The position numbers and the translations under genes were made by a program. DNA of 64,000 bases from contig OZ024874.1 of assembly GCA_964017185.1 (NCBI GenBank), forward strand, positions 37,176,721 through 37,240,720, given 5' to 3'. Below the pieces are notes generated by a model. It was not told the origin of the DNA, searched no databases, and saw only the letters and a list, made by a program, of their open reading frames with translations. This document shows positions 1-35,257 of the stretch, in pieces. How positions within the stretch are numbered: position 1 is the first letter of the stretch; every line of letters starts with the position of its first letter. The DNA is from Rugalucina vietnamica (Eukaryota > Mollusca > Bivalvia > Lucinida > Lucinidae).

Positions 1-45
1 ACAGTTAGTTTCAAGTATGTTAAATCATAAAATTGATTCAATATT

Positions 46-87
46 GGCGATAGCTCAGTGGATTTATGCAAGTAATTTTTTCTCTCT

Positions 88-129
<42 letters not shown>
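46..129. repeat. tRNA A-box-like stretch followed by CT run and poly-T
   Basis: The stretch TAGCTCAGTGG near 50-61 resembles a Pol III A box. It is followed by a (TC)n run and a 39-base T tract (91-129). No B box is visible. The mirror copy at 35145-35213 has only 21 bases in the homopolymer. It may be the head or tail of an old SINE; that is a weak inference. Confidence 0.4.
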
Positions 130-942
130 CAATATAAACACATGTGCTTAGATTTACCAACTATTTAGACTATTTCGTCTGTAAATCTAAACCAAATCTC
201 GTTAACACCAGTGTTGACCTTATACACTGTATGATAAACCTGATGCATCGGGCGGCCGATCTGTTTATCAAAGCCCTGTTATAGTCAATTTGCCATATTG
301 AACTTAGGCCTAGTTATACTCGCAATTATGTATACAGTTTATGAATAAAAAATGGCCCCATTTGGGCCGTGAGAAATAATAGATGGACTGCTTGTACCCG
401 CGGCTCCAAGCATAGCTTATACGCTACTTACTAGTCATCTGATTAGGCTACTGGTTAACCGCTCAGGTCTAAGACTGCCTAGAAAAAACGTTGTTGGGTC
501 AAAGCATCCATACACATAAGCCTTACTTTGGTAGTTACATGTATATACTGAGCCAAACAAAAAGTATCCCGATTATGGCATGCTTTCGCATTTCAATGAA
601 ATGTAAGAGAGTCTACCATACACATGCTGGTCAGCAATCGCCTACATGTAAAAAGTGTTTTGTTTTCAGAGTATGGACCATATTGAGCTCAAAGGGATTG
701 ACCAAAGTGGGTATGTTAGAATTCAGTTTTATGGGTCGTGAAAAAATGATTAATTTCTTGAGACGCATAATACAGAATGTTACAACCAAGATATTGTTAG
801 ATGTGTCAATCGACTGGCAATCTTATTCACTGGAAACAAAGTTTATTCGTATAACATAACAAATAAACCGATGTTGCGTTATAAGTTGGGCTCAGTATAT
901 TTGAAACACATTTTGGATGCCATGACATCCTAATTTTGTATA
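130..942. other. No gene recognised (arm flank)
   Basis: A 122-codon open frame spans 491-859 and is kept in the mirror copy with a single amino-acid change. The two arms are ~99% identical, so this does not indicate selection, and the protein matches no family I recognise. No repeat unit or hairpin of note was seen here. Confidence 0.6.
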
Positions 943-1619
943 AACGTCTCATTAAGAGCAATTCTCTGTAACCACTTAAAAAGTTGTGCCACGCATAGTC
1001 ACCGATTTTGCTGAAACTTTCCTATCTTGGTCGTTTGAGCACAAAACTAATTAATCAACACTCATTTGGTTCAATTTCATACTCGTTGTGCACCATGGAA
1101 ACGGCAAATGAATATTTTGGCAAAAAGTGTGTCCAAAAATCACCTAAAATTGGGTATATTACTTTATACAAATTCAGATCCAACTTATGGTCCACATATA
1201 TGAATATATAACACATTCTGGTTATAAATACAAAAACAAAACATGATTTGGAAATTCTCTGATTTTATCATGGCTCGACAAAGTGGGTGGGGTTTCGAAG
1301 ATTTGAAAAATGTGATTTTTAAGCATTTTTAGGGACAATTATCATAGTGAGTGCGGTCGGTTGCAGATATACGCGCACATTCACGATATACAACAATGTT
1401 TTGTTAACCAATTTCTGAAAAGACATGTTCGGGAAGTTAGGTCTGAATAACCATAGCAACAATGAGGATACTGTCGCAAAACGCAAATTTATGAGTGTCT
1501 GTCCTTTTGGTCTCATAGAATTCTACTGCGAGGACATAATTGATTGTAAATTATGTGATATGTTGCAATTGAAACTAGTCTTCAAACAATATGGCATTTA
1601 ATCTGCAGTGACCTTCTAT

Positions 1620-3398
1620 AGGTCAAGGTCAAGGTCACAGAATAGAGAAAAATGACACAAACTTGACTTTTTTGCCCATGTTTAAGTTGATTTTGCCATA
1701 ATCGAGAATCAAATTTATTTCTTTATTGAATATTCATACATATCAACACAAAGTCTTTCATCCTGAGATATTTTTGTCCACCAGGTGACTTCAAGGTCAA
1801 GGTTAAGGTGACCAAAAGTTTAATTTTTTAGGGGGTAAAATGGAGTTTTTGTTGAAGAAGTAAACAAATTAAAGTACTAATTTTTATTGTATTATGCTTT
1901 TTCATTTATATATGTGTTGCAAAGTCTGATATGATTCAGACAATTGACCTGCTGACCTTGAAGAACCTTTTAAGGGCCAAGGTCAATGTCAAAATGAAAA
2001 AAAAATGGCTTAAATTGGCATTTTCTTTCCAGTATTTTGTTATTTTTCCCAGAGTTTGGTGCAAAATTGCTTTAATATTTGTTTTAAACGCTTGAGATAT
2101 GTTGTATATGAAACAACGGTTAATAAAATATGGCATTGAATCTGCATTGACCTTCGGAAAGTCAAGGTCAAGGTCACAGAATAGAGAAAAATGACACAAA
2201 ATTGGCTTTTTTGCTCATGTTTTAGTTGATTATGCCAGAATTTAAGATCAAATTTCTTTCTTTATTAAATATTTATGCATATCAACACAAAGTCTTTCAC
2301 GCTGAGATATTTTTGTCCACCAGGTGACTTCAAGGTCAAGGTCAAGGTCACCAAAAGTTTATTTTGTGAGGGGGTAAAATGGATTTTTTGTTGAAGTAGT
2401 AAGCAAATTAAAGTACTATTTTTTATCGTATTATGCTTGTTCTTTTATATATGTTTTGCAAAGTCCGATATCATTCAAACAATCGACCTGCTGACCTTAA
2501 ATAACCTTTTAAGGGTCAAGGTCAAGGTAAAAAATGCAAGAAAATGGATTAAACTGGCATTTTCTTACCAGTATTTTGTTATTTTTCCGCGAGTTTGGTG
2601 ACCAATTGCTTTAACATTTGTTGTAAAAGCTTGTGATATGTTGTATATGAAACAACAGTGAAGAGAATATGTCATTGGATCTGCAGTGACCTTCGGAAAG
2701 TCAAGGCAAAGGTCACATGTTAGAGAAAAATGACACAAAATTGGCTTTTTTGCTCATGTTTATGTTGATTTTGCCATAATATAGGCTCAAATTTCTATTT
2801 TTATTGAATATTTATGCATATCACCACAAAGTCTTTCACGCTCAGATATTTTTGTCCACCAGGTGACTTCAAGGTCAAGGTCAAGGTCACCAAAAGTTTA
2901 TTTTTTTAGGGGATAAAATGGAGTTTTTGTTGAAGAAGTAAACAAATTAAAGAATCAATGTTTATCGTATTATGCTATTTATTTTTACATGGTTTGCAAA
3001 GTCCGATATTATTCAGGCGATCCACCTGCTGACCTTAAAATAACCTTTTAAGGTCAAGGTCAAAAATGTAAGAAAATGGCTTAAATTGGCATTTTCTTAC
3101 CAGTAAATTTTGTTATTTTTCCCAGGGTTTGGTGCAAAATTGCTTTAATATTTGTTTTAAAAGCTTGAGATAGGTTGTATATTAAACAGCGGTTAAGAAA
3201 ATATGGTATTGAATCTGCAGTGACCTTCGGAAAGTCAAGGTCAAAGTCACATGTTACAGAAAAATGACACAAAATTGGCTTTCTTGCTCATGTTTAAGTT
3301 CATTTTGCAATAATTAAATTTAAGGCTAAAATTTCTTTCTTACTGAAGTTTATTGAATATTTTTGCATATCACCACAAAGTCTATCACTCTGAGATGT
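1620..3398. repeat. ~537-bp tandem units with AAGGTCA clusters
   Basis: The landmark AGAAAAATGACACAAA recurs near 1648, 2186, 2725 and 3260, giving a period of about 535-539 bp. Each unit carries two or three blocks of TCAAGGTCAAGGTCA and the conserved stretch CACCAGGTGACTTCAAGGTC. The inverted half of the inner palindrome (3399-5600) carries the same units on the other strand. The family is typical of bivalve repetitive DNA. AAGGTCA is also the monomer site of ERR/FTZ-F1-type nuclear receptors, but nothing here shows it is used. Confidence 0.85.
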
Positions 3399-3999
3399 CA
3401 CGTCATTTTCTTGATTCTGTGACCTTGACCTTGACTTTCTGAAGGTCATTGCAGATTCAATGCCATATTTTTATATACATGTACATAATATTACAAGCTT
3501 TAAAATCAAGTATTAAAACAGTTTCGCACCCAAATCGGGGGAAAATAACCAAATACTGGTAAGAAAAAGCCTTTTTCTTACATCTTTGACCTTGACCTTT
3601 ACCCTTTAAAGGTTCTTTTAGTTCAACGGGTGTATTGTCTGAACGTAATCGAACATTGCAACACATATATAAATGAAAAAAGCATAATATGGTTGACATC
3701 AATGATTTAATTTGTTTACAATTTAAACAAAAACTCCATTTTACCCCCTAAAATTCAAAGTTTTGGTAACCTGGTGGACAAAATTATCACAGATTGAAAG
3801 ACTTTGTGTAAATATGTATAATCATTCATGATTACAAGACTGTACAAGAATGTGAAGGATCAATTATTGCAAAATAAACTTGAATATTGGCAAAAAATGA
3901 CATTTTTATGTCATTTTGTCGATTCTGTGACCTTGACCTTGACTTTCACAAGGTCACTGCAGATTCAATGCAATATTTTCTTAACCGTTGTTTCATATA

Positions 4000-4970
4000 C
4001 GAGGGGGTTTCAAAAAGTTCGCGGAAAAGTGCCGTCATATTCTTATTTTGTAAATCAGCTGAATTAAACTAATACAGTTATATAGACCAACATGATTTGT
4101 ACGTATACAGCAAATTTTGCTGCTCTGGCATGAACACAATGTTAACAGTGGTTGCTATGGAAACCGTACATCACGATTACCGGCCCACTTTTGTTCATTT
4201 TTGCAAAAAGTCGATGTTTAATGATGAGGTTGCATTTGATAATTAACCGTGCTTTTTTCACCAAACTTTGTATGAGCAAAGTTCAATATGTTTGCGATGA
4301 GCCCGTTGCGTCATATAAGTGTGTGACGTCATTTGGGCGTTAAGCGCCCATATTGTTTGGTGGGTATGCCTAAAATGCGAAGGGAACAACGTTATTCGAT
4401 AAATTGTGTGTTTGGAACGAACTATAAATGAAAGAAACACTGCTAAGAGCAGAAAGCGCATATGGCAACAAGAAAATTAAGAAAACGGCAATCAACAAGT
4501 AGTAAGCATGAGTTCTACACGACCAGAAAAGCGTCCATGTCGACTCGCGCAGCGTAACGTCAAAAAACGTCATACTGTCGAAAATGATCGTCGTGATAGA
4601 AAAGAGTAGAATTCGTGAAATACACAACATATTGAATTGTAGCTTCGGCACATTTACCGCATTACACACACAGAACTGACAATTAGACGCCCGTATGCAA
4701 GGTTGATTCCGAAAATGCTTAAGAGCTAGCCAACAGCGGCATGAATGCGTGTAGCATGACGTTGTTGTGACGTTGGGCCGGTTTTACTGTTGTTACCTTA
4801 GAAACGCACGTGATTTAATGCCTAATTTTCATCCGATTTTATTCAAATTTTGTGCATATGTTAACTATATGTTAATTTACAAAATGCACAGAGAAGGTAA
4901 ATTTCCGAAGACAATTACAAATTTGGCAGCACTTTTCCTCGAACTTTTTGACCCCCCCCCCCCCCCCTCG
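4000..4970. mobile_element. Mariner-like non-autonomous element (left arm)
   Basis: The inverted ends begin CGAGGGGGTTTCAAAAAGTT on the left; the right end is the complement with an expanded C tract. Both ends sit directly against TA (3998-3999 and 4971-4972), the target site of Tc1/mariner elements. The flanks TTTCATA and CAACATATC are contiguous in sister repeat units that lack the insertion (for example near 33178), which marks the exact empty site. The 971-bp interior encodes no visible DDE transposase, so it is non-autonomous. It contains a hairpin GGGCGTTAAGCGCCC near 4335. Confidence 0.85.
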
Positions 4971-6308
4971 TACAACATATCTCAAGCGTTCAAAACAAAC
5001 ATTAAAGCAATTTGGCACTAAACTCTGGGAAAAATATCAAAATACTGGCAAGAAAATGCCAGTTGAGTCCATTTTCTTGCATTTTTGACCTTGACCTTGA
5101 CCCTGAAAAGGTTATTTAAGGTCAGCAGGTGCATTGTTTGAATGATATCGGACTTTGCAACACATACATAAATGAAAAAACAACAACAACAAAAAAAAAA
5201 ACAAAAAACATAATACGTTAAAAACAAATACTTTAATTTGTTTACTTCTTCAACAAGAACTCCATTTTAACCCCTAAAAAATAAACTTTTGGTGACCTTG
5301 ACCTTGGCCTTGAAGTCACCTGGTGGCCAAAAATATCTCAACGTGAAAGACTTTGTGGTGAAATGCATAAATATTCAATAAAGAAATAAATTTGAGCCTC
5401 AATTATGGCAAAATCAACTTAAACATGGGCAAAAAAGTCAATTTTGTATCATTTTTCTCTATTCTGTGACCTTGACCTTGACCTTTATAAAGTCACTGCA
5501 GATTGAATGCCATATTTTCTGAAGACTAGTTTCAGTTGCAACATATCACATAATTTACAATCAATTATGTCCTCGCAGTAGAATTCTATGAGACAAAAAG
5601 GACAGACACTCATAAATTTGCGTTTTGCGACAGTACCCTCATTGTTGCTATGGTTACGCATATTCAAACCTAACTTCCCAATTATGTCTTTTCAGAAACT
5701 GGTTAACAAAACATTGTTGTATATCGTGAATATGCGCGTATATCTGCAACCGACCGCACTCACTATGAGAATTGTCCCTGAAAATGCTTAAAAATCACAT
5801 TTTTCAAATCTTCGAAACCCCACCCACTTTGTTGAGCCATGATAAAATCAGAGGTTTTCCATATCAGTTTTTGTTTTTGTATTTCTAACCAGAATGTGTT
5901 ATATATTTATATATGTGGACCATAAGTTGGATCTGAATTTGTATAAAGTAATAGTTTCAGCTTAAAAATACCCAATTTTAGGTGATTTTTGGACACACTT
6001 TTTGCCAAAATATTTATTTGCCGTTTCCATGGCAACGGGTATGAAATTGGACCAAATGAGTGTTGATTAATTAGTTTTGTGTTCAAATGATCAAGATAGG
6101 AAAGTTTCAGCAAAATCGGTGACTATGCGTGCCACGGCCCTATGTAAAAATTTAAGTGGTTACAGAGAATTGCTCTTAAATGGAGGCAACGTCTCGACAT
6201 GAAAATATCTGTTGACTGAGACGTTATGCATTAATTCAAAGAAACTAACTAAAATAAAATGAATTCTATTGGCCTTTATCAATATTGAAGCAAACAATAA
6301 AAATTATG

Positions 6309-6560
6309 ACTCGGTGGCTCAGTGGTAAGCTATGTTGTCTTCTGTCCAGACGATCAGAGTTCGAATCCTGTCTAGGTAATATTTTGTTGTTTCTTGCCCT
6401 CACATAAACACGGCCGCCAATTTAGTTTACTATTTATGTCCTATTGTTAGGACTAAAGTTAGGATATCTTAAGGATGAGACATATCTAATACCGAAATTA
6501 GTAATAAGTTCTGACTTAGGATAAGACATGTCATAAAACGCTTCGTGAAAGATTGAGGTT
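6309..6560 (+). mobile_element. tRNA-like head of a probable SINE (left arm)
   Basis: TGGCTCAGTGG (6316-6326) fits a Pol III A box and AGTTCGAATCC (6359-6369) fits a B box; the 43-base spacing is that of a tRNA. The implied acceptor stem (6309-6315 with 6373-6379) pairs only partly, the T stem pairs poorly and the anticodon loop lacks U33, so it is not a functional tRNA gene. The following ~180 bp contain CTTAGGATAAGACATGT and CTTCGTGAAA, which recur in modified form near 35380-35420. A tRNA-derived SINE is the best reading. Confidence 0.55.
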
Positions 6561-6830
6561 ATTCAATACACGCATTTTACAAATAGTTTCTTTGTAAAAC
6601 TGTAGTTATGACCCTCATATTTCTCAAACATTTTTTTCCGATTATTATTATTAAAATTTAGTTTGATTTCTTGAAGTTTTATAGGCATTGATCTTTTTTG
6701 TTATTTAAAAACGAACAAAAATCTAGAAAAAAGATCGCAAGCAGGTGCTTGCAGCCAGTTCTAATCTAACAAAGTCTAGAATGCAGAAGCCAATTGTTCA
6801 TTGTTTTATCGCCATTCTCTTTCAAGGAAA

Positions 6831-7716
6831 ATGGAATTTTCTACCTTACAGCCGCTGGGTAACTGGACAGCCAATGGAGATCTAAAACTCAAATCAACTT
6901 TAACAACAGCAAATACTGGAAATTGGCCAAATACAGATACCGTGACAAACGTTTCGGAAGTTATCATTTTGTCTTTTACCTCTGTAAATGTCAGTTATTC
7001 CAATTTCGCCGACAGCAGGGAAAATACAGCAGCATGGATGTTATACGCGCTGTTCTGCTTGAATTGCTTATTCCTGGTTTTTGGCTTTTTTGGAAACGTT
7101 TCAAGCATTATTGTTATGCTACAACCACCAAGGAAACTACAAACATACGGCCTGCTTGTGGTCGTTCTTGCTCTAACTAACACGCTGGGTTTAACAACTA
7201 ACTTTTTCCGCCTGTTGCCATTACCAGTAATATTAAACAGCGACTTTAGGGCATTGACGACACTGGGTGTACAATATCCATGAGTTTTGACCTAATAGCG
7301 AAAATGTATTCCTCATATATCATTGTTCTTATATGCATTGACAGATTCATAGCTGTACAATATCCTTTACAATTCAAGCAAATTATATCTAGAAAGGTTA
7401 GAATTCTATCATTATGTATATGTGATCATATGTGAATGTGCTTGTTTGTTATTTGGCATTGCAAATGCACTCGTGTTTCCCGAAATCAAAAATGGCATGT
7501 GTCAACTCGGTACCAATGGACCAAAAACGTTCATGCAAAATATTTTACGTTTTTTAAGCATTGGTATATTTAATGTCATGCCCCATGGTTATTTTACTTT
7601 CTCTTACCCCTATTATCATATTCAAACTTAAACAACAATATGATGTAAGGGCGCGTCTCACAACTAAGGATGAGAGCAACATCTTGCTCGTGCAAGACTG
7701 GGCGATCAGGGATTGA
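6831..7716 (+). pseudogene. Rhodopsin-type (class A) GPCR pseudogene, left copy
   Basis: From the ATG at 6831 the frame encodes an N-terminus with sequons (NWT, NVS), TM1 with the GN motif and TM2. The conserved TM2 Asp is Asn here (LALTN). A 14-bp insertion near 7238-7251, absent from the other arm, breaks the frame before TM3 and ends it at 7281-7283. The TM3 sequence with its IDRFIAVQYPL motif continues in another frame. A second frameshift near 7418-7424, shared with the other arm, separates TM3/ICL2 from a TM4-ECL2 segment (GMCQLG). A further shift leads to a TM5-like LTPIIIFKLK stretch ending at 7716. TM6-TM7 are not convincing. It is a dead receptor gene; ligand unknown. Confidence 0.85.
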
Positions 7717-8059
7717 ATCGGATCAAGTCATGCCAAAGAACGAAATACCAACTTCATAAACGCTGCAATATGTGGACATGGCGAGATTTCAAACGAATTC
7801 ATGTAGTACCCTTGCTGTACTAATGGCCTCGAGGATCATGATACTGCTTTTTTCATGCTTATCTCACTTGAGGTTATCAGTTTTAAAACTGCTCAAAATA
7901 CTGAAGTAGCCATTTTTTTCAAGTTTGAATCACAAAAGCCAGCCATTTATACTGTTCATAAATAAAATGTAAATATACCGACAGTTGATTACCGTAATCA
8001 AAATTTACCTTTTAACATTTATCAGCAGGATAAACTTCAGTCTCTGCTGAGTAGATCAT
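7717..8059. other. Possible GPCR 3' remnant, no clear gene (left arm)
   Basis: This follows the TM5-like segment. A hydrophobic stretch (LAVLMASRIMILL, around 7812-7850) could be a decayed TM6, but the W-x-P motif is absent. The region ends with TTTATCAGCAGGATAAACTT, an end shared with the palindrome near 17735. Confidence 0.3.
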
Positions 8060-8355
8060 GAAAAAGGTTCCAAAGCGATACTTCTGTTGTAGTTCTATTT
8101 GTTTTATGTTTTGGTGTCGAATTTTTGTGCTGTTTGAACTTTATGTACGTTTTCATATTTCTATTTAAGTTCGGGTAACTGAGTGGCCGCTTATTGGGAA
8201 ATAGCTGCTCACTCGCCTTACGATATGTTTTCTAAGTAATTTAGTCTAAGTAATTAAGTCTACCTAATTTAGTTCTCCCCACCTCGGTTTTTGGAGTGGG
8301 AATTTCCTCCTGATTACGCTTTTTCCTGATCATTGCCCACTTGTACATTTTTATA
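8060..8355. repeat. Dispersed repeat family, copy 1 (left arm)
   Basis: This ~295-bp sequence matches 45005-45290 at moderate identity. Landmarks are GCGATACTTCTGT, AACTGAGTGGCC, GGTTTTTGGAGTGGGA and TTTCCTGATCATTGCC. The mirror copy lies at about 26990-27265. It has no coding content; the element class is unknown. Confidence 0.8.
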
Positions 8356-8412
8356 ACTTCAGGTTTTAATTTGTCTCGTTGTGGTTCCTGAATGTTGAGT
8401 GCATCAGCAAAT

Positions 8413-8560
8413 CATTACGAAAACACACCCATACAATATACAGAGATTTTTTAAGTTGTAAAAATATGAAAAATAAGTGTACCCTTGTTTACCCCATTTT
8501 TTGCTATATAAAAGTGGGGTTCAATGGGGGTATACATTTTACAAACATGTTTTCCTGTCA
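8413..8560. mobile_element. CATTACGAAAAC MITE lacking its central hairpin (left arm)
   Basis: It starts CATTACGAAAACACACCC and ends with the near-complement ATGTTTTCCTGTCAG. It keeps the family landmarks ACAGAGATTTTTTA and TATATAAAAGTGGGGT, but the central ~100-bp hairpin present in the copies at 13798, 45949 and 48968 is missing. The mirror copy is at 26759-26906. Confidence 0.75.
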
Positions 8561-9800
8561 GTCTGTCACAAATCGTTTGCGCTCTGTAACTTGAGATTCG
8601 TTTAAGACATTTTGATGAAACTTAACAGGATTGTTGAACAACATTAGATCGGACGTGCAGAACACAAGAACCATAACTCTGGACTGTGTATATTTGGAGT
8701 TATTGACCTTTGAAATGGAAAATAGCAGAATTTGCTTTCTAGTCGTGTTCGCTCTGTAACTTGAAAATGGTTTAAGATTATTATCATGAAACTTCATTAA
8801 TTTATTAATCAACATGAGACGATGTGCAGAACACAAGAACTGTAACTCTGGGTTACATATTTTTCGAGTTATGACCCTTTGAAATCGGAAATAGCCAAAC
8901 AGGCATTTAAGTCTTGTCCGTTCTGTTTCTTGAATACCATGATGAAACTTCATACGAATATCAATTAGCATAAGAAGATTTGCAGACCACAAAACCCTTA
9001 ACTCTGGATTTGCTATGATCCTTTGAAATGGGAAATATCGGAATTTGCCGCTTAGTCTTGTCCGCTTTGTAACTTCAAGACTGTTTAAGATATTGTTATA
9101 AAACTTCATAGGATTACTAACCAATATAACATGGTGTACAGAACACAAGGTCCGTAAATCTGGGTTGTATATTTATCGAGTTATGGAAAAAAAGGATTTG
9201 CATTCTGGTTGTGTACACTCTGTAATATAAGAACCGTTTAAGATAGCTTCATGAGACTACATAGGAATATCAAACAGAATTCAAGAACGATTACCCTGGG
9301 CTGCATGTTTTTGGAGTTATGGCCCTTACAGATGCAAGGTAAAGGATTTTGAATAGTAAGTTGTGTCCGCTCTGTAACTTGAAAGTCCTATGAAGCTTTG
9401 TAATATTTGTAGGATGAGACGATGTTGCAGAACTCAAGAACCATAACTCTGGATGGCATATTTTTGTTATAGCCCTTTGGAATGAAACATTGCAGATTTC
9501 GCATTGCAATCAACTAAATAATGGTGTCCTCTTTGTAACTTGCCAATCGATTAAGCTTCATGAAACATCACAGGATAATTGCAAACATCAGAAGACCTGT
9601 AGAACGCAAGATTTGTAACAGTGGAGTGCATATTTTTGGAGTTTTGGTGCTTTGAAATAGAAGATAATGGATTTTGCAATATTTGTCTGTTCTGTAATTT
9701 GGGAACCAATCAATCTTTTGTGTTGAAACTTTATAGCATTATTTACATCCACGGCAATGTGCAGAACACAGAAAACGTAACTCTAGAATATTGAATATGT
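8561..9800. repeat. ~160-bp tandem array (left arm)
   Basis: About eight diverged units, each with a GCAGAACACAAGAACC-like stretch (near 8655, 8825, 8980, 9138, 9275, 9427, 9598 and 9762), a CTCTGTAACTTGAAA stretch and CATGAAACTTCATA. The period varies from ~137 to ~171 bp. Long open frames on the minus strand are by-products of the repeat. Confidence 0.8.
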
Positions 9801-10228
9801 TTGCATTTAGAAAGGGGCGACATCAGTTTTCGTGTAGAAAACAAATTTTAGTCACTTTTTATCACTAAGGCATAAAGACTAATTTCTCAGCCATTCTTAT
9901 GAAAATTATATGATATGAAAATATAAAACCTGTAGAAAATGCATTTTTTTTTTGCACGTTAGCGATATTTTTGTGAATTATTTTAAAATCAGCAGCTTCA
10001 AAAACTGTACCATTTCCTAATGTCGGCATTTTTTCTATTTGTTTAACCATTTTATGTGTACTTAGAAAAGGTACGAGAAAATATGTTATCTTATGTAAAG
10101 CTGAACAATTTGTGTTATCTTATAGCACCTGGACAATTACCTAACGGACTTTCTTGGGAATGTGATATGTGAATCTTAGTTGTGTTTGTGTGTACCAGAT
10201 ATGGGTTGCTTTGGTAATGACTTAAGTG
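9801..10228. other. No feature recognised (left arm)
   Basis: AT-rich sequence between the tandem array and the hAT remnant. Short open frames differ between the arms by a 3-bp change in a homopolymer, and none resembles a known protein. Confidence 0.6.
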
Positions 10229-10980
10229 CAGGGCCGTCGTCGGCTTTTGAAAAGAAACATCAAATACGTTATACGAGTGCCGAAGGCACGAGTTGGGACG
10301 ATTTTAATGCACTTTGTGACAATTTTTGCCCTTGAAGGGCTGCTTATTTTATAGGTTTCATTATAATGAAGCCATGTCCTGGTCGAAAACCATGAAGCTG
10401 GAAAGCTCCTATTCAAAGGATTTGCCTTGCCGAAGGAACGCTTAGGTTGATTAGGAACCGGCGGTATATCCATGATAGAAGAATAACATGCACGTTTTAA
10501 CAAATTTTGGAATATGGAGCCAAAATAATGTTTACGCGTAAACAATTTTTCGGCATGTTGTTTGATTTAATGCAATAATTATAAACAGTGATTGGGTTAT
10601 TGAAAAATTATGTTTAACTTAAGTTTTTTCAACTGTGAAATACAACTTTACACTTTTTCTAATTCTTTTAAGATCACCATGATCACAGAGAATCGGTTTT
10701 ATTCACAATGAATTAATGAACACTTTGAAGCACCTTCACCACTTCAAACGATAATACCTGTCTTTAAAAAGAGGTGTCATTTTCATGATTGTTTTTATAA
10801 CGACCGTCTTTCACACCCTCGGGAAGATTGACCGAGTATGCTCACACTTCAAAAAAAGTCGAACAGGGCTATCACATTTTCGGCCGAATAATCGAAAATT
10901 GTGGTCCGGCCGAAACCATTTTCGGCCAAAAAAATGGTCCGGCCATGGCCGAACCGGCCGGACCGCCGACGACGGCCTTG
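10229..10980 (-). mobile_element. Deleted hAT-type element (left arm)
   Basis: The ends are CAGGGCCGTCGTCGGC (10229) and the complement of CAAGGCCGTCGTCGGC (ending 10980). These are near-perfect inverted repeats with the CA-G-GG start common in hAT elements. The interior carries a TTF zinc-finger remnant at 10269-10545 and a GC-rich stretch full of CGGCC motifs near 10880-10975. No 8-bp target duplication is evident, and most of the transposase is missing. Confidence 0.65.
10269..10545 (-). pseudogene. TTF-type zinc-finger fragment of hAT-related protein (left arm)
   Basis: The minus-strand frame reads QPKRSFGKANPLNRSF then SWFSTRTWLHYNE. This fits the N-terminal TTF-type zinc-finger pattern of hAT-derived proteins (basic-FGK, RSF, SWF, WLHY-E). 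After LHYNE the frame shifts; the plausible continuation AALQGQKLS lies in the +1 frame and stops at the position mirroring 25052-25054. The zinc-ligand cysteines expected after this block and the catalytic RNase-H-like region are absent. It lies inside a pair of hAT-like terminal repeats, which supports the assignment. Confidence 0.65.
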
Positions 10981-11519
10981 AAATGTGTATCTTTGTAATT
11001 GCCTATGTGTATTTGTATTTGTGAAAAGTCAAGTTTCGTCACTATTATGCAATAAAATAATGTTATATCAATCATCGTTTTGTTTAAGACTAATCCCACC
11101 TAACCACCAAAATATTTTGGCAACGCATAGTCAGGGATTCCAATTTAATTGTTTTAGTTATATTAGGATGCTTAAACAATGAAGGGAATTGATTATAATT
11201 TTTAAAAATATGCTTCTGTTACCATGGCAACCGGGATCAAACATTGGAAAATCTGAATAAAATTGTGTTTAAGAGGTCTTGGTCTTTAGTTGGATTTCTA
11301 TGATATCCAAACATTATCATTTCATTTTTTTCTTACCAGAATTGTAGGATATAAAATCTTTAGTTGATCAGATGACCCCAAATAAAGATATACACAGGAT
11401 TGGTAAATTTATTGACTTTTAAATATGATTTTTGGGTAAAAAATCTTGGTTTTGGGTGCTTATTTTGATTGAATATTTTTCTGTAAGGCAGGCATTCCTA
11501 GTATAGGCAGTATTAGTTT
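10981..11519. other. Arm edge without recognised feature
   Basis: The last ~540 bp of the left arm. Short AT-rich open frames only. The final 300 bp appear identical between arms. Confidence 0.6.
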
Positions 11520-12087
11520 TCTATAGAACACGCATCAAAATCATGATTTATGAAAAAATATCTGTGGGCCTCTTTGAACCTAGACAGAAATATGACATTG
11601 AAGATTAGATTTTAATGGCCTGATGTAATCATTAAAAAGGCATTATTATTACTCTGTCAAGGCTTAAAAGAGAGTTTTTGCAAATATATATTGAATTTCA
11701 TATTGTGTTAATGGTAAAAATGCGCTAATACCAATCAGTTAATGAATTGGGCTTGAGGGAGACCCTTTATAGGGGGATTTCCTTAGCAACAACAATAACA
11801 CTGAGAGTTACTTCCCCTTGAAGCTCTTCATTAAGAAGGTACAACTGAAATGCATTGCCGCTGACGGTCAGTGAGGACGCAGCCAGCGTGCAAGCGGTAA
11901 TTGTATTTTATTTTGAAACCTTACTCGACGCAAAATAATCCGAAACAAAATGGCGACCACTTTTTGGTCGAAATTTCAATCAAAATGACACGCTTATTGC
12001 TGTGCTTAAAACAATAGCGGCTATACGGTACAGCTAGATCCGCCTTGTCCAGGATTTCATGTTACCGCGTAACACTGAGACGCCACA
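11520..12087. other. No feature recognised (spacer start)
   Basis: Single-copy-looking AT-rich DNA just inside the left arm. No convincing coding region, repeat or hairpin seen. Confidence 0.6.
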
Positions 12088-22975: not shown

Positions 22976-23004
22976 ATGTGTGTTTGCATCAACGTATATA
23001 TATG

Positions 23005-23800: not shown

Positions 23801-24342
23801 GGTAAACTAATACTGCCTATACTAGGAATGCCTGCCTTACAGAAAAATATTCAATCAAAATAAGCACCCAAAACCAAGATTTTTTACCCAAAAATCATAT
23901 TTAAAAGTCAATAAATTTACCAATCCTGTGTATATCTTTATTTGGGGTCATCTGATCAACTAAAGATTTTATATCCTACAATTCTGGTAAGAAAAAAATG
24001 AAATGATAATGTTTGGATATCATAGAAATCCAACTAAAGACCAAGACCTCTTAAACACAATTTTATTCAGATTTTCCAATGTTTGATCCCGGTTGCCATG
24101 GTAACAGAAGCATATTTTTAAAAATTATAATCAATTCCCTTCATTGTTTAAGCATCCTAATATAACTAAAACAATTAAATTGGAATCCCTGACTATGCGT
24201 TGCCAAAATATTTTGGTGGTTAGGTGGGATTAGTCTTAAACAAAACGATGATTGATATAACATTATTTTATTGCATAATAGTGACGAAACTTGACTTTTC
24301 ACAAATACAAATACACATAGGCAATTACAAAGATACACATTT

Positions 24343-25094
24343 CAAGGCCGTCGTCGGCGGTCCGGCCGGTTCGGCCATGGCCGGACCATTTTTTTGGCCG
24401 AAAATGGTTTCGGCCGGACCACAATTTTCGATTATTCGGCCGAAAATGTGATAGCCCTGTTCGACTTTTTTTGAAGTGTGAGCATACTCGGTCAATCTTC
24501 CCGAGGGTGTGAAAGACGGTCGTTATAGAAACAATCATGAAAATGACACCTCTTTTTAAAGACAGGTATTATCGTTTGAAGTGGTGAAGGTGCTTCAAAG
24601 TGTTCATTAATTCATTGTGAATAAAACCGATTCTCTGTGATCATGGTGATCTTAAAAGAATTAGAAAAAGTGTAAAGTTGTATTTCACAGTTGAAAAAAC
24701 TTAAGTTAAACATAATTTTTCAATAACCCAATCACTGTTTATAATTATTGCATTAAATCAAACAACATGCCGAAAAATTGTTTACGCGTAAACATTATTT
24801 TGGCTCCATATTCCAAAATTTGTTAAAACGTGCATGTTATTCTTCTATCATGGATATACCGCCGGTTCCTAATCAACCTAAGCGTTCCTTCGGCAAGGCA
24901 AATCCTTTGAATAGGAGCTTTCCAGCTTCATGGTTTTCGACCAGGACATGGCTTCATTATAATGAAACCTATAAAATAAGCAGCCCTTCAAGGGCAAAAA
25001 TTGTCACAAAGTGCATTAAAATCGTCCCAACTCGTGCCTTCGGCACTCGTATAACGTATTTGATGTTTCTTTTCAAAAGCCGACGACGGCCCTG
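24343..25094 (+). mobile_element. Deleted hAT-type element (right arm)
   Basis: Mirror of 10229-10980. It starts CAAGGCCGTCGTCGGC and ends with the complement of CAGGGCCGTCGTCGGC. Flanking octamers (ACACATTT and CACTTAAG) do not match, so target duplication is not supported. Confidence 0.65.
24778..25054 (+). pseudogene. TTF-type zinc-finger fragment of hAT-related protein (right arm)
   Basis: Mirror copy of the fragment at 10269-10545, identical at the protein level through the FGK, RSF, SWF and WLHYNE landmarks. It has the same frameshift after residue ~63 and the same early stop at 25052-25054 in the shifted frame. Both breaks therefore predate the arm duplication. Confidence 0.65.
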
Positions 25095-25529
25095 CACTTA
25101 AGTCATTACCAAAGCAACCCATATCTGGTACACACAAACACAACTAAGATTCACATATCACATTCCCAAGAAAGTCCGTTAGGTAATTGTCCAGGTGCTA
25201 TAAGATAACACAAATTGTTCAGCTTTAAATAAGATAACATATTTTCTCGTACCTTTTCTAAGTACACATAAAATGGTTAAACAAATAGAAAAAATGCCGA
25301 CATTAGGAAATGGTACAGTTTTTGAAGCTGCTGATTTTAAAATAATTCACAAAAATATCGCTAACGTGCAAAAAAATGCATTTTCTACAGGTTTTATATT
25401 TTCATATCATATAATTTTCATAAGAATGGCTGAGAAATTAGTCTTTATGCCTTAGTGATAAAAAGTGACTAAAATTTGTTTTCTACACGAAAACTGATGT
25501 CGCCCCTTTCTAAATGCAAACATATTCAA

Positions 25530-26758
25530 TATTCTAGAGTTACGTTTTCTGTGTTCTGCACATTGCCGTGGATGTAAATAATGCTATAAAGTTTCAACAC
25601 AAAAGATTGATTGGTTTCCAAATTACAGAACAGACAAATATTGCAAAATCCATTATCTTCTATTTCAAAGCACCAAAACTCCAAAAATATGCACTCCACT
25701 GTTACAAATCTTGCGTTCTACAGGTCTTCTGATGTTTGCAATTATCCTGTGATGTTTCATGAAGCTTAATCGATTGGCAAGTTACAAAGAGGACACCATT
25801 ATTTAGTTGATTGCAATGCGAAATCTGCAATGTTTCATTCCAAAGGGCTATAACAAAAATATGCCATCCAGAGTTATGGTTCTTGAGTTCTGCAACATCG
25901 TCTCATCCTACAAATATTACAAAGTTTCATAGGATTTTCAAGTTACAGAGCGGACACAACTTACTATTCAAAATCCTTTACCTTGCATCTGTAAGGGCCA
26001 TAACTCCAAAAGCATGCAGCCCAGGGTAATAGTTCTTGAATTCTGTTTGATATTCCTATGTAGTTTCATGAAGCTATCTTAAACGGTTCTTATATTAGAG
26101 AGTGTACACAACCAGAATGCAAATCCTTTTTTTCCATAACTCGATAAATATACAACCCAGATTTACGGACCTTGTGTTCTGTACACCATGTTATATTGGT
26201 TAGTAATCCTATGAAGTTTTATAACAATATCTTAAACAGTCTTGAAGTTACAAAGCGGACAAGACTAAGCGGCAAATTCCGATATTTCCCATTTCAAAGG
26301 ATCATAGCAAATCCAGAGTTAAGGGTTTTGTGGTCTGCAAATCTTCTTATGCTAATTGATATTCGTATGAAGTTTCATCATGGTATTCAAGCAACAGAAC
26401 GGACAAGACTTAAATGCCTGTTTGGCTATTTCCGATTTCAAAGGGTCATAACTCGAAAAATATGTAACCCAGAGTTACAGTTCTTGTGTTCTGCACATCG
26501 TCTCATGTTGATTAATTAATTAATGAAGTTTCATGATAATAATCTTAAACCATTTTCAAGTTACAGAGCGAACACGACTAGAAAGCAAATTCTGCTATTT
26601 TCCATTTCAAAGGTCAATAACTCCAAATATACACAGTCCAGAGTTATGGTTCTTGTGTTCTGCACGTCCGATCTCATGTTGGTCAACAATCCTGTTAAGT
26701 TTCATCAAAATGTCTTAAACGAATCTCAAGTTACAGAGCGCAAATGATTTGTGACAGA
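25530..26758. repeat. ~160-bp tandem array (right arm)
   Basis: Mirror of 8561-9800, about eight diverged units with GTTCTTGTGTTCTGCA as landmark. Small differences from the left arm change open-frame lengths, as expected for non-coding repeats. Confidence 0.8.
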
Positions 26759-26906
26759 CTGACAGGAAAACATGTTTGTAAAATGTATATCCCCATTGAA
26801 CCCCACTTTTATATAGCAAAAATGGGGTAAACAAGGGTACACTTATTTTTCATATTTTTACAACTTAAAAAATCTCTGTATATTGTATGGGTGTGTTTTC
26901 GTAATG
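26759..26906. mobile_element. CATTACGAAAAC MITE lacking its central hairpin (right arm)
   Basis: Mirror copy of 8413-8560 with the same missing hairpin, so the deletion predates the arm duplication. Confidence 0.75.
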
Positions 26907-26989
26907 ATTTGCTGATGCACTCAACATTCAGGAACCACAACGAGACAAATTAAAACCTGAAGTTATAAAAATGTACAAGTAGGCAATGA

Positions 26990-27265
26990 TCAGGAAAAAG
27001 CGTAATCAGGAGGAAATTCCCACTCCAAAAACCGAGGTGGGGAGAACTAAATTAGGTAGACTTAATAACTTAGACTAAATTACTTAGAAAACATATCGTA
27101 AGGCGAGTGAGCAGCTATTTCCCAATAAGCGGCCACTCAGTTACCCGAACTTAAATAGAAATATGAAAACGTACATAAAGTTCAAACAGTACAAAAATTC
27201 GACATAAAAACATAAAACAAATAGAACTACAACAGAAGTATCGCCTTGGAACCTTTTTCATGATC
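26990..27265. repeat. Dispersed repeat family, copy 2 (right arm)
   Basis: Reverse complement of 8060-8355 within the other arm, related to the diverged copy at 45005-45290. Confidence 0.8.
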
Positions 27266-27603
27266 TACTCAGCAGAGACTGAAGTTTATCCTGCTGATAA
27301 ATGTTAAAAGGTAAATTTTGATTACGGTAATCAACTGTCGGTATATTTACATTTTATTTATGAACAGTATAAATGGCTGGCTTTTGTGATTCAAACTTGA
27401 AAAAAATGGCTACTTCAGTATTTTGAGCAGTTTTAAAACTGATAACCTCAAGTGAGATAAGCATGAAAAAAAGCAGTATCATGATCCTCGAGGCCATTAG
27501 TACAGCAAGGGTACTACATGAATTCGTTTGAAATCTCGCCATGTCCACATATTGCAGCGTTTATAAAGTTGGTATTTCGTTCTTTGGCATGACTTGATCC
27601 GAT

Positions 27604-28474
27604 TCAATCCCTGATCGCCCAGTCTTGCACGAGCAAGATGTTGCTCTCATCCTTAGTTGTGAGACGCGCCCTTACATCATATTGTTGTTTAAGTTTAATA
27701 TGATAATAGGGGTGTGAGAAAGTAAAATAACCATGGGGCATGACATTAAATATACCAATGCTTAAAAAACGTAAAATATTTTGCATGAACGTTTTTGGTC
27801 CATTGGTACCGAGTTGACACATGCCATTTTTGATTTCGGGAAACACGAGTTAATTTGCAATGCCAAATAACAAACAAGCACATTCACATATGATCACATA
27901 TACATAATGATAGAATTCTAACCTTTCTAGATATAATTTGCTTGAATTGTAAAGGATATTGTACAGCTATGAATCTGTCAATGCATATAAGAACAATGAT
28001 ATATGAGGAATACATTTTCGCTATTAGGTCAAAACTCATGGATATTGTACACCCAGTGTCGTCAATGTTTAATATTACTGGTAATGGCGACAGGCGGAAA
28101 AAGTTAGTTGTTAAACCCAGCGTGTCAGTTAGGGCAAGAACGACCACAAGCAGGCCGTATGTTTGTAGTTTCCTTGGTGGTTGTAGCATAACAATAATGC
28201 TTGAAACGTTTCCAAAAAAGCCAAAAACCAGGAATAAGCAATTCAAGCAGAACAGCGCGTACAACATCCATGCTGCTGTATTTTCCCTGCTGTCGGCGAA
28301 ATTGGAAAAACTGACATTTACAGAGGTAAAAGACAAAATGATAACTTCCGAAACGTTTGTCACGGTATCTGTATTTGGCCAATTTCCAGTATTTGCTGTT
28401 GTTAAGGTTGATTTGAGTTTTAGATCTCCATTGGCTGTCCAGTTACCCAGCGGCTGTAAGGTAGAAAATTCCAT
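27604..28474 (-). pseudogene. Rhodopsin-type (class A) GPCR pseudogene, right copy
   Basis: The frame runs from the ATG complement at 28472-28474 for 196 codons. Visible features are sequons N11, N40 and N53, TM1 (~69-96, G88-N89), TM2 (~105-126, L113 and D117), TM3 starting at C142 and the DRF motif at D166-R167-F168. The spacing C142 to D166 is exactly the 24 residues expected between positions 3.25 and 3.49 of class A receptors. The frame then breaks in TM4 at the same place as in the left copy. In the shifted frame this copy has its own TAA (complement of 27850-27852) where the left copy has GCA. A TM5-like segment follows to 27604. It resembles peptide-type receptors, but the subfamily is not determinable. 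Confidence 0.87.
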
Positions 28475-28749
28475 TTTCCTTGAAAGAGAATGGCGATAAA
28501 ACAATGAACAATTGGCTTCTGCATTCTAGACTTTGTTAGATTAGAACTGGCTGCAAGCACCTGCTTGCGATCTTTTTTCTAGATTTTTGTTCGTTTTTAA
28601 ATAACAAAAAAGATCAATGCCTATAAAACTTCAAGAAATCAAACTAAATTTTAATAATAATAATCGGAAAAAAATGTTTGAGAAATATGAGGGTCATAAC
28701 TACAGTTTTACAAAGAAACTATTTGTAAAATGCGTGTATTGAATAACCT

Positions 28750-28998
28750 CAATCTTTCACGAAGCGTTTTATGACATGTCTTATCCTAAGGCAGAACTTA
28801 TTACTAATTTCGGTATTAGATATGTCTCATCCTTAAGATATCCTAACTTTAGTCCTAACAATAGGACATAAATAGTAAACTAAATTGGCGGCCGTGTTTA
28901 TGTGAGGGCAAGAAACAACAAAATATTACCTAGACAGGATTCGAACTCTGATCGTCTGGACAGAAGACAACATAGCTTACCACTGAGCCACCGAGTCA
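28750..28998 (-). mobile_element. tRNA-like head of a probable SINE (right arm)
   Basis: Mirror copy of the tRNA-like sequence at 6309-6560. The B-box complement lies near 28939-28949 and the A-box complement near 28981-28991. It has the same defects in tRNA pairing. Confidence 0.55.
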
Positions 28999-29109
28999 TA
29001 ATTTTTATTGTTTGCTTCAATATTGATAAAGGCCAATAGAATTCATTTTATTTTAGTTAGTTTCTTTGAATTAATGCATAACGTCTCAGTCAACAGATAT
29101 TTTCATGTC

Positions 29110-32100
29110 GAGACGTTGCCTCCATTTAAGAGCAATTCTCTGTAACCACTTAAATTTTTACATAGGGCCGTGGCACGCATAGTCACCGATTTTGCTGAAA
29201 CTTTCCTATCTTGATCATTTGAACACAAAACTAATTTATCAACACTCATTTGGTCCAATTTCATACCCGTTGCCATGGAAACGGCAAATAAATATTTTGG
29301 CAAAAAGTGTGTCCAAAAATCACCTAAAATTGGGTATTTTAAGCTGAAACTATTACTTTATACAAATTCAGATCCAACTTATGGTCCACATATATAAATA
29401 TATATAACACATTCTGGTTAGAAATACAAAAACAAAAACTGATATGGAAAACCTCTGATTTTATCATGGCTCAACAAAGTGGGTGGGGTTTCGAAGATTT
29501 GAAAAATGTGATTTTTAAGCATTTTCAGGGACAATTCTCATAGTGAGTGCGGTCGGTTGCAGATATACGCGCATATTCACGATATACAACAATGTTTTGT
29601 TAACCAGTTTCTGAAAAGACATAATTGGGAAGTTAGGTCTGAATATGCGTAACCATAGCAACAATGAGGGTACTGTCGCAAAACGCAAATTTATGAGTGT
29701 CTGTCCTTTTTGTCTCATAGAATTCTACTGCGAGGACATAATTGATTGTAAATTATGTGATATGTTGCAATTGAAACTAGTCTTCAGAAAATATGGCATT
29801 TAATCTGCAGTGACCTTATAAAGGTCAAGGTCAAGGTCACAGAATAGAGAAAAATGATACAAAATTGACTTTTTTGCCCATGTTTAAGTTGATTTTGCCA
29901 TAATTGAGGCTCAAATTTATTTCTTTATTGAATATTTATGCATTTCACCACAAAGTCTTTCACGTTGAGATATTTTTGGCCACCAGGTGACTTCAAGGCC
30001 AAGGTCAAGGTCACCAAAAGTTTATTTTTAGGGGGTAAAATGGAGTTCTTGTTGAAGAAGTAAACAAATTAAAGTATTTGTTTTTAACGTATTATGTTTT
30101 TTTTTTGTTGTTGTTGTTGTTTTTTCATTTATGTATGTGTTGCAAAGTCCGATATCATTCAAACAATGCACCTGCTGACCTTAAATAACCTTTTCAGGGT
30201 CAAGGTCAAGGTCAAAAATGCAAGAAAATGGACTCAACTGGCATTTTCTTGCCAGTATTTTGATATTTTTCCCAGAGTTTAGTGCCAAATTGCTTTAATG
30301 TTTGTTTTGAACGCTTGAGATATGTTGTACGAGGGGGGGTCAAAAAGTTCGAGGAAAACTGCTGCCAAATTTGTAATTGTCTTCGGAAATTTACCTTCTC
30401 TGTGCATTTTGTAAATTAACATATAGTTAACATATGCACAAAATTTGAATAAAATCGGATGAAAATTAGGCATTAAATCACGTGCGTTTCTAAGGTAACA
30501 ACAGTAAAACCGGCCCAACGTCACAACAACGTCATGCTACACGCATTCATGCCGCTGTTGGCTAGCTCTTAAGCATTTTCGGAATCAACCTTGCATACGG
30601 GCGTCTAATTGTCAGTTCTGTGTGTGTAATGCGGTAAATGTGCCGAAGCTACAATTCAATATGTTGTGTATTTCACGAATTCTACTCTTTTCTATCACGA
30701 CGATCATTTTCGACAGTATGACGTTTTTTGACGTTACGCTGCGCGAGTCGACATGGACGCTTTTCTGGTCGTGTAGAACTCATGCTTACTACTTGTTGAT
30801 TGCCGTTTTCTTAATTTTCTTGTTGCCATATGCGCTTTCTGCTCTTAGCAGTGTTTCTTTCATTTATAGTCCGTTCCAAACACACAATTTATCGAATAAC
30901 GTTGTTCCCTTCGCATTTTAGGCATACCCACCAAACAATATGGGCGCTTAACGCCCAAATGACGTCACACACTTATATGACGCAACGGGCTCATCGCAAA
31001 CATATTGAACTTTGCTCATACAAAGTTTGGTGAAAAAAGCACGGTTAATTATCAAATGCAACCTCATCATTAAACATCGACTTTTTGCAAAAATGAACAA
31101 AAGTGGGCCGGTAATCGTGATGTACGGTTTCCATAGCAACCACTGTTAACATTGTGTTCATGCCAGAGCAGCAAAATTTGCTGTATACGTACAAATCATG
31201 TTGGTCTATATAACTGTATTAGTTTAATTCAGCTGATTTACAAAATAAGAATATGACGGCACTTTTCCGCGAACTTTTTGAAACCCCCTCGTATATGAAA
31301 CAACGGTTAAGAAAATATTGCATTGAATCTGCAGTGACCTTGTGAAAGTCAAGGTCAAGGTCACAGAATCGACAAAATGACATAAAAATGTCATTTTTTG
31401 CCAATATTCAAGTTTATTTTGCAATAATTGATCCTTCACATTCTTGTACAGTCTTGTAATCATGAATGATTATACATATTTACACAAAGTCTTTCAATCT
31501 GTGATAATTTTGTCCACCAGGTTACCAAAACTTTGAATTTTAGGGGGTAAAATGGAGTTTTTGTTTAAATTGTAAACAAATTAAATCATTGATGTCAACC
31601 ATATTATGCTTTTTTATTTATATATGTGTTGCAATGTTCGATTACGTTCAGACAATACACCCGTTGAACTAAAAGAACCTTTAAAGGGTAAAGGTCAAGG
31701 TCAAAGATGTAAGAAAAAGGCTTTTTCTTACCAGTATTTGGTTATTTTCCCCCGATTTGGGTGCGAAACTGTTTTAATACTTGATTTTAAAGCTTGTAAT
31801 ATTATGTACATGTATATAAAAATATGGCATTGAATCTGCAATGACCTTCAGAAAGTCAAGGTCAAGGTCACAGAATCAAGAAAATGACGTGACATCTCAG
31901 AGTGATAGACTTTGTGGTGATAAGCAAAAATATTCAATAAACTTCAGTAAGAAAGAAATTTTAGCCTTAAATTTAATTATTGCAAAATGAACTTAAACAT
32001 GAGCAAGAAAGCCAATTTTGTGTCATTTTTCTGTAACATGTGACTTTGACCTTGACTTTCCGAAGGTCACTGCAGATTCAATACCATATTTTCTTAACCG

Positions 32101-34330
32101 CTGTTTAATATACAACCTATCTCAAGCTTTTAAAACAAATATTAAAGCAATTTTGCACCAAACCCTGGGAAAAATAACAAAATTTACTGGTAAGAAAATG
32201 CCAATTTAAGCCATTTTCTTACATTTTTGACCTTGACCTTAAAAGGTTATTTTAAGGTCAGCAGGTGGATCGCCTGAATAATATCGGACTTTGCAAACCA
32301 TGTAAAAATAAATAGCATAATACGATAAACATTGATTCTTTAATTTGTTTACTTCTTCAACAAAAACTCCATTTTATCCCCTAAAAAAATAAACTTTTGG
32401 TGACCTTGACCTTGACCTTGAAGTCACCTGGTGGACAAAAATATCTGAGCGTGAAAGACTTTGTGGTGATATGCATAAATATTCAATAAAAATAGAAATT
32501 TGAGCCTATATTATGGCAAAATCAACATAAACATGAGCAAAAAAGCCAATTTTGTGTCATTTTTCTCTAACATGTGACCTTTGCCTTGACTTTCCGAAGG
32601 TCACTGCAGATCCGATGACATATTCTCTTCACTGTTGTTTCATATACAACATATCACAAGCTTTTACAACAAATGTTAAAGCAATTTGTCACCAAACTCG
32701 CGGAAAAATAACAAAATACTGGTAAGAAAACGCCAGTTTAATCCATTTTCTTGCATTTTTTACCTTGACCTTGACCCTTAAAAGGTTATTTAAGGTCAGC
32801 AGGTCGATTGTTTGAATGATATCGGACTTTGCAAAACATATATAAAAGAACAAGCATAATACGATAAAAATTAGTACTTTAATTTGCTTACTACTTCAAC
32901 AAAAAATCCATTTTACCCCCTCACAAAATAAACTTTTGGTGACCTTGACCTTGACCTTGAAGTCACCTGGTGGACAAAAATATCTCAGCGTGAAAGACTT
33001 TGTGGTGATATGCATAAATATTTAATAAAGAAAGAAATTTGATCTTAAATTCTGGCATAATCAACTAAAACATGAGCAAAAAAGCCAATTTTGTGTCATT
33101 TTTCTCTATTCTGTGACCTTGACCTTGACTTTCCGAAGGTCAATGCAGATTCAATGCCATATTTTATTAACCGTTGTTTCATATACAACATATCTCAAGC
33201 GTTTAAAACAAATATTAAAGCAATTTTGCACCAAACTCTGGGAAAAATAACAAAATACTGGAAAGAAAATGCCAATTTAAGCCATTTTTTTCATTTTGAC
33301 ATTGACCTTGGCCCTTAAAAGGTTCTTCAAGGTCAGCAGGTCAATTGTCTGAATCATATCAGACTTTGCAACACATATATAAATGAAAAAGCATAATACA
33401 ATAAAAATTAGTACTTTAATTTGTTTACTTCTTCAACAAAAACTCCATTTTACCCCCTAAAAAATTAAACTTTTGGTCACCTTAACCTTGACCTTGAAGT
33501 CACCTGGTGGACAAAAATATCTCAGGATGAAAGACTTTGTGTTGATATGTATGAATATTCAATAAAGAAATAAATTTGATTCTCGATTATGGCAAAATCA
33601 ACTTAAACATGGGCAAAAAAGTCAAGTTTGTGTCATTTTTCTCTATTCTGTGACCTTGACCTTGACCTATAGAAGGTCACTGCAGATTAAATGCCATATT
33701 TTTTGAAGACTAGTTTCAATTGCAACATATCACATAATTTACAATCAATTATGTCCTCGCAGTAGAATTCTATGAGACCAAAAGGACAGACACTCATAAA
33801 TTTGCGTTTTGCGACAGTATCCTCATTGTTGCTATGGTTATTCAGACCTAACTTCCCAAACATGTCTTTTCAGAAATTGGTTAACAAAACATTGTTGTAT
33901 ATCGTGAATGTGCGCGTATATCTGCAACCGACCGCACTCACTATGATAATTGTCCCTAAAAATGCTTAAAAATCACATTTTTCAAATCTTCGAAACCCCA
34001 CCCACTTTGTCGAGCCATGATAAACTCAGAGAATTTCCAAATCATGTTTTGTTTTTGTATTTATAACCAGAATGTGTTATATATTCATATATGTGGACCA
34101 TAAGTTGGATCTGAATTTGTATAAAGTAATATACCCAATTTTAGGTGATTTTTGGACACACTTTTTGCCAAAATATTCATTTGCCGTTTCCATGGTGCAC
34201 AACGAGTATGAAATTGGACCAAATGAGTGTTGATTACAAACGACCAAGAAAGGAAAGTTTCAGCAAAATCGGTGACTATGCGTGGCACAACTTTTTAAGT
34301 GGTTACAGAGAATTGCTCTTAATGAGACGT
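29110..34330. repeat. Inner palindrome nested in the right arm
   Basis: Mirror of 943-6190. Its own centre is near 31888, with ~537-bp AAGGTCA-rich units running away on both sides and the mariner-like insertion at 30330-31291 in one half. Confidence 0.9.
30330..31291. mobile_element. Mariner-like non-autonomous element (right arm)
   Basis: This is the mirror copy of the element at 4000-4970. TA dinucleotides flank it at 30328-30329 and 31292-31293. Its G tract is shorter (about 7 against ~16 in the left copy), so the homopolymer changed after duplication. No transposase frame is visible. Confidence 0.85.
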
Positions 34331-35257
34331 TTATACAAAATTAGGATGTCATGGCATCCAAAATGTGTTTCAAATATACTGAGCCCAACTTATAACGCAA
34401 CATCGGTTTATTTGTTATGTTATACGAATAAACTTTGTTTCCAGTGAATAAGATTGCCAGTCGATTGACACATCTAACAATATCTTGGTTGTAACATTCT
34501 GTATTATGCGTCTCAAGAAATTAATCATTTTCTCACGACCCATAAAACTGAATTCTAACATACCCACTTTGGTCAATCCCTTTGAGCTCAATATGATCCA
34601 TACTCTGAAAACAAAACACTTTTTACATGTAGGCGATTGCTGACCAGCATGTGTATGGTAGACTCTCTTACATTTCATTGAAATGCGAAAGCATGCCATA
34701 ATCGGGATACTTTTTGTTTGGCTCAGTATATACATGTAACTACCAAAGTAAGGCTTATGTGTATGGATGCTTTGACCCAACAACGTTTTTTCTAGGCAGT
34801 CTTAGACCTGAGCGGTTAACCAGTAGCCTAATCAGATGACTAGTAAGTAGCGTATAAGCTATGCTTGGAGCCGCGGGTACAAGCAGTCCATCTATTATTT
34901 CTCACGGCCCAAATGGGGCCATTTTTTATTCATAAACTGTATACATAATTGCGAGTATAACTAGGCCTAAGTTCAATATGGCAAATTGACTATAACAGGG
35001 CTTTGATAAACAGATCGGCCGCCCGATGCATCAGGTTTATCATACAGTGTATAAGATCAACACTGGTGTTAACGAGATTTGGTTTAGATTTACAGACGAA
35101 ATAGTCTAAACAGTTGGTAAATCTAAGCACATGTGTTTATATTGAAAAAAAAAAAAAAAAAAAAAGAGAGAGAGAGAAAAAATTACTTGCATAAATCCAC
35201 TGAGCTATCGCCAATATTGAATCAATTTTATGATTTAACATACTTGAAACTAACTGT

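Follow-up and report, generated by a model that had tools for sequence, protein, structure and literature searches.

Inverted duplications that lie on either side of a single segment have been described in several systems. In human, delINVdup and dupINVdup variants range from 298 bp to Mb in size, and a replication-based origin was proposed for them (PMC6286558). Inverted duplications are also found at the breakpoints of inversions (Ranz 2007, as cited in PMC12368964 and PMC11499932). Those of herring measure 8-60 kb, have cores of 7-21 kb that are 95-99% identical, and contain one or no gene; the authors favoured ectopic recombination between the duplicates for three of four inversions (PMC11499932). 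According to the authors of the cod study, short and non-repetitive duplications are expected from end joining (PMC12368964). Template switching is the process to which inverted copies are attributed in ODIRA and in template-switch inverted amplification (PMC10766183, PMC4689423).

The locus described here lies in the window, the whole stretch of 64,000 nucleotides that was analysed (C6:37176721-37240720; the assembly has 1.09 Gb in 47 contigs), and consists of two mirror-image arms (Y and Y') around a spacer (S). Like the delINVdup/dupINVdup variants, it combines a presumed inversion with a duplicated flank, repeats close to the junctions, and a small insert; in human, inserts of this kind were reported at some junctions, one patient having inserts of 5 and 48 bp. 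Unlike it, those variants came from a disease cohort and showed microhomology of 3 bp or more at each of their eight junctions, whereas junction J2 has 1 bp here, and our locus further differs in its transposon-rich DNA and in an extra inverted piece (X') (PMC6286558). As in cod and herring, inverted copies flank a segment, here presumably inverted, at both ends (PMC12368964, PMC11499932); in contrast to both, the duplication exceeds this segment (12.3 kb) in length, and it is long and transposon-rich, unlike what the cod authors expected from end joining (PMC12368964). The locus also resembles the inverted copies attributed to template switching (PMC10766183, PMC4689423), although it has two copies rather than the three of the inverted triplications (PMC4689423).

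We regard the whole feature as a recent local inverted segmental duplication that arose by rearrangement and represents no functional unit, with a probability of about 0.72. Its origin is most likely a replication or repair accident; its size is above that first claimed, but it belongs to an ordinary kind already known.

Structure of the inverted repeat

Flanks were added to the window, giving 164 kb for comparison in total. Window coordinates equal the C6 position minus 37176720, and coordinates below 1 lie outside the window, leftward. Self-BLAST of the window aligned 1-11519 with 35257-23804 on the minus strand over 11,522 columns at 98.88% identity (58 mismatches, 71 gap bases), and exact inverted matches reach up to 744 bases in the window, against maxima of 15-22 bases in 20 first-order Markov resamples. 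The self-BLAST confirms in the assembly the giant inverted repeat of the first-pass annotation, with arms of at least 11.5 kb around a 12.3-kb spacer and about 99% identity. Its statement that the inner 300 bp carry no difference proved conservative, as the innermost 724 bp (10796-11519) are identical. It had also suspected that the arm is longer than the window, and indeed the leftward extension aligned past 35257 and the match runs to -4422/41693 (Table 1). Position 35257 was rejected as an arm boundary, being merely the place where the window edge truncates the left arm.

With the flanks included, -3193..11519 pairs with 38431..23804 (14,725 columns, 98.79%). Past a length difference, an outer block follows, in which -4422..-3251 pairs with 41693..40546 at 97.27%; the right arm includes 2.1 kb (38432-40545) that are absent from the left arm. 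Other repeats were seen in and near the window. A 464-bp tandem repeat (2.8 copies) occupies 15434-16718 and has a 79% relative about 61 kb leftward, at -46209..-44664, and a 743-bp near-palindrome at 53131-53873 is 85.6% identical to its own reverse complement.

Table 1. Features of the inverted repeat and its surroundings, in window coordinates
Feature	Position	Strand	Remarks
X	-14221..-9531		Second inverted duplication, 4.7-kb arms
X'	-9094..-4422		Mirror partner of X, 99.2%
Left arm (Y)	-4422..11519 (15,942 bp); in-window part 1..11519	+	Left end at C6:37172298
Foldback-like element in arm	951..6181		Inverted arms, ~540-bp tandem sub-repeats
~960-bp element nested in foldback-like element	3997..4958		18 other copies at 97-99% among matches listed
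768-bp dispersed repeat	11084..11851	+	Unbroken across inner end of left arm into spacer; natural boundary
Spacer (S)	11520..23803 (12,284 bp)	+	Between the arms
GGTAGG-type polypurine tract	23200..23803	+	Adjoins J1
Right arm (Y')	23804..41693 (17,890 bp)	-	Mirror copy of left arm
Same 768-bp repeat in right arm	23804..24240	-	Truncated at 23804, a broken boundary that forms junction J1 (23803/23804)
TIR element, complete in right arm	37961..40161		Copies elsewhere
Dispersed repeat with imperfect palindrome (41632-41734)	41560..41756	+	Unbroken across 41693/41694; natural boundary
Giant foldback-like element	60092..83203 (23,112 bp)		Starts at right end of window; inverted termini AGATGGGTGAAGTTAGCC...; perfect 9-bp target-site duplication

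Content of the arms

The arm sequence is nested transposon DNA. Copies of the foldback-like element were found on several contigs, mostly at 82-91% identity (33 scored of 18,080 candidates). These copies often form inverted pairs at most 10 kb apart. The ~960-bp element nested in it appears to be young because its other listed copies are so alike. A query with the whole arm (33 of 18,080 candidates scored) returned a set of matches from which the window's own two arms were absent, and it is hence uninformative on further whole-arm copies. The 4.9 kb at 6182-11083 were found at full length at the two arms only, and elsewhere as fragments, the long ones at 76-91% (40 scored of 13,568 candidates).

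Opposite the complete TIR element of the right arm, the left arm carries a partial single TIR, followed by a 57-bp filler and then the outer block. No template longer than 11 bp was found for the filler in the 164 kb searched. A deletion with filler is thus present in the left arm, which suits error-prone copying or later repair, and a filler that has no long template is compatible with end joining as much as with replication.

Searches for genes gave no Rfam match and no tRNA with ARAGORN (bacterial model). Three Pfam matches were obtained from the 10 longer frames, all under the family cut-offs. Among stop-to-stop pieces 62 aa or longer (150 of 151 scanned), a type of search that overlooks short spliced exons, four single-member families matched at E 0.006-0.007, where about 1.5 chance matches are expected; this set left out pieces lying entirely inside 23804-35257, ending at or beyond 60000, or with fewer than 15 residue types. 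No convincing Pfam domain and no recognisable gene was found in the pieces scanned, so that the functional weight of the locus is small.

Natural and cut ends of the arms

Copies of the 768-bp repeat at the inner end matched at 24 other places, and all six that were read align from 11083/11084 to 11851 at 95-96%, across 11519/11520; as the query that found them stopped at 11519, crossing played no part in their selection. On the right-arm side, the same six copies all end their alignment at 23804. For the repeat at the outer end, all 39 other scored copies span 41693/41694 at 95-98% (40 scored of 231 candidates), as do 5/5 copies read. The query for the scored copies (41560-41860, with the boundary falling between its bases 134/135) covered sequence on either side and was thus biased toward spanning copies. 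The left arm ends at -4422, where the repeat of the right arm would continue. At the level of sequence, these copies show the inner end of the left arm and the outer end of the right arm to be natural, and -4422 and 23804 to be cut. This pattern, in which each arm has a natural end and a cut one, follows directly from an inversion with a duplicated flank; an inverted copy with two cut ends beside an intact original yields it too, provided that the spacer was later flipped via recombination between the arms.

Many outer-end copies have an additional match on the opposite strand that stops at query base 132, two bases short of the cut. J2 sits 2 bp from 41691, where the repeat's internal mirror similarity ends in 5/5 copies read. 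Position 41691 was considered as a natural end of the repeat and rejected, as the element extends past it on both sides in 5/5 copies read. The nearness of J2 to 41691 is a coincidence that the best explanation does not account for and that counts against it.

A second inverted duplication beside the left arm

The pair X/X' lies directly leftward of Y and encloses a spacer of 437 bp with CG-rich inverted sub-repeats. X and X' differ at 17 of 4,672 sites (Fisher p 0.32 versus Y/Y'). All eight X-family copies read extend beyond -14221, like X itself; compared with X', six of them align exactly to -4422 and two end 44-45 bp earlier. Hence X' too is cut at -4422, and J2 (-4423/-4422) unites two cut pieces, X' and the left arm Y. 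In favour of the best explanation, J2 falls within an imperfect palindrome and J1 adjoins the polypurine tract; the small extent of the microhomology at J2 (1 bp) counts against it. Given the truncation of X' at -4422 (8/8 copies read), it is possible that DNA was lost at the other breakpoint. A single event behind X/X' and Y/Y' is the simplest reading, not a proven one, and X' may alternatively have arisen on its own at about the same time.

Divergence of the arms and alternative explanations

The main block contains 69 mismatches in 14,616 ungapped columns and the outer block 8 in 1,148, which gives 77 mismatches in 15,764 aligned bases for Y/Y', or about 0.49%. If substitutions accumulate at an assumed 1-5e-9 per site per year, the arms would be 0.5-2.4 million years old. 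The first-pass annotation had suggested gene conversion as a possible reason for the identity of the arms. Conversion is not needed, since a divergence of about 0.49% is compatible with a single recent origin, and we consider it very improbable that this is an old palindrome homogenised by arm-to-arm gene conversion in the manner of mammalian sex-chromosome palindromes. The mismatches are slightly uneven along the arms (variance/mean 1.57, p 0.027) and scarce toward the inner end (at most one in the inner 1424 bp; p 0.009, for a region picked post hoc), which together would be weak evidence for conversion at best, and the longest identical run between the arms is within expectation (p 0.36). 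Against conversion, the divergence of X/X' is similar, so that a single recent date covers both duplications, and the pieces scanned yielded no gene family. Still less credible is a giant transposon of the foldback or long-TIR type, with the arms as its terminal inverted repeats. The genome does contain giant foldback-type elements with 9-bp target-site duplications, and smaller foldback-like elements lie inside the arms; however, the flanks at -4422 and 41693 differ and form no target-site duplication, the arm ends slice through unrelated repeats and delimit no element, and the 4.9 kb tested are full length at two arms only among the 40 candidates scored. Arms as transposon ends were thus rejected on the boundary data and the copy survey of 6182-11083 (40 scored of 13,568 candidates).

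An assembly artefact, in which both haplotypes of a single F-Y-S locus were joined consecutively with the second one inverted, deserves more weight and is still unlikely. A difference of about 0.5% and one 2.1-kb length difference would be plausible for two alleles, J1 lies at the edge of a low-complexity tract, a frequent site of assembly breaks, and a mis-join would likewise leave each arm with one natural and one cut end; moreover, no third copy of 6182-11083 was seen in the assembly among the 40 scored candidates. On the other hand, the 164 kb contain zero N, so there is no scaffold gap at J1 or J2, and X/X', with its own 437-bp spacer, would demand an artefact of its own that terminates at exactly this position, -4422. 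In addition, 17 and 77 differences probably exceed what a fold-back read of one molecule would produce.

Possible routes of origin

Under our main reading, a rearrangement within the chromosome, the present order X-M-X'-Y-S-Y'-F' would derive from an ancestral order, in present orientation, of X-M-(perhaps lost DNA)-S'-Y'-F', and the spacer S would be inverted relative to it. A duplicated segment lies inverted on either side of one segment, and each copy has one ancestral neighbour and one new junction, as in delINVdup, an arrangement that a later flip of the spacer could mimic.

The route that we tentatively place first, at slightly less than even odds, is a template-switching inversion of the spacer that retained one flank in two copies (delINVdup type, MMBIR/FoSTeS-like). 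In this route, X would be copied backwards to give X' during repair or replication within the palindromic tract M; a jump to the outer end of Y' would be followed by backward copying of Y' and S' as far as the polypurine tract; and a further jump into Y' would lead onward to F'. A staggered-break inversion would produce the same main repeat (Y-S-Y'), but X' would require a second event. In the other route, which we judge doubtful, X' and Y alone arose as inverted copies next to S', and recombination between the two arms turned the spacer round at a later time. The present sequence is compatible with both the template-switching and the later-flip route and does not distinguish them.

It is also conceivable, though on balance improbable, that X', Y, and S all stem from a single replicative event in which the template was switched serially among repeats prone to form hairpins (the M tract, the palindrome at 41632-41734, and the polypurine tract), similar to chromoanasynthesis in the germline. 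This proposal is rated lower because of the possible later flip of the spacer. If it is true, the event has been caught young and is perhaps still segregating in the population.

A giant foldback-like element family

The giant foldback-like element at the right end of the window contains two opposed arrays of a 373-bp satellite. Its terminal 27-mer (at most 2 mismatches) gave 87 forward and 83 reverse matches genome-wide, while the reversed control gave 0. From 100 listed termini, 44 convergent pairs were built and 12 termini remained unpaired. Among these pairs, 42 are spaced 16.9-72.2 kb apart (mean 43.8 kb) and two are mini pairs of 215 and 277 bp, with none between the mini and the 16.9-kb sizes. 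Perfect 9-bp target-site duplications flank all four large pairs whose ends were read, or 5/5 with the window's copy counted; of the mini pairs, the 277-bp one has a target-site duplication and the 215-bp one has none.

The 373-bp satellite was seen in three of the four large pairs read. In the 70.8-kb copy, it was present in 9/9 interior samples, on the plus strand in the left half and on the minus strand in the right half; the 72.2-kb copy has it in one interior sample and at both ends, and the 18.5-kb copy at both ends. The 300 bp read at each end of the 37.4-kb copy contained no satellite. Either whole satellite arrays transpose in this family, or mini-elements grow in situ to a size of tens of kb.

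Of the described elements that we found, Tetris from Drosophila virilis comes closest; this foldback element carries 220-bp tandem repeats within TIRs of up to 1.7 kb and has 8-10-bp duplications, and longer arrays are derived from it (PMC4079207). Judged by title and opening of the abstract, the papers listed in literature searches on foldback elements and satellites presented no element with satellite arms of tens of kb. The giant foldback-like element family seems more unusual than the main inverted duplication.

Implications

The first-pass annotation had regarded palindromes of this size as rare outside sex chromosomes, amplified regions or misassemblies, which does not hold for this genome: the 164 kb contain a second young inverted duplication, and 42 long-spaced pairs of termini were listed. 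The formation of inverted duplications in transposon-rich genomes can be read and dated at this locus, where dispersed copies of the cut repeats discriminate old from new arm ends without an outgroup. Long palindromes in transposon-rich genomes need not indicate sex chromosomes or selection.
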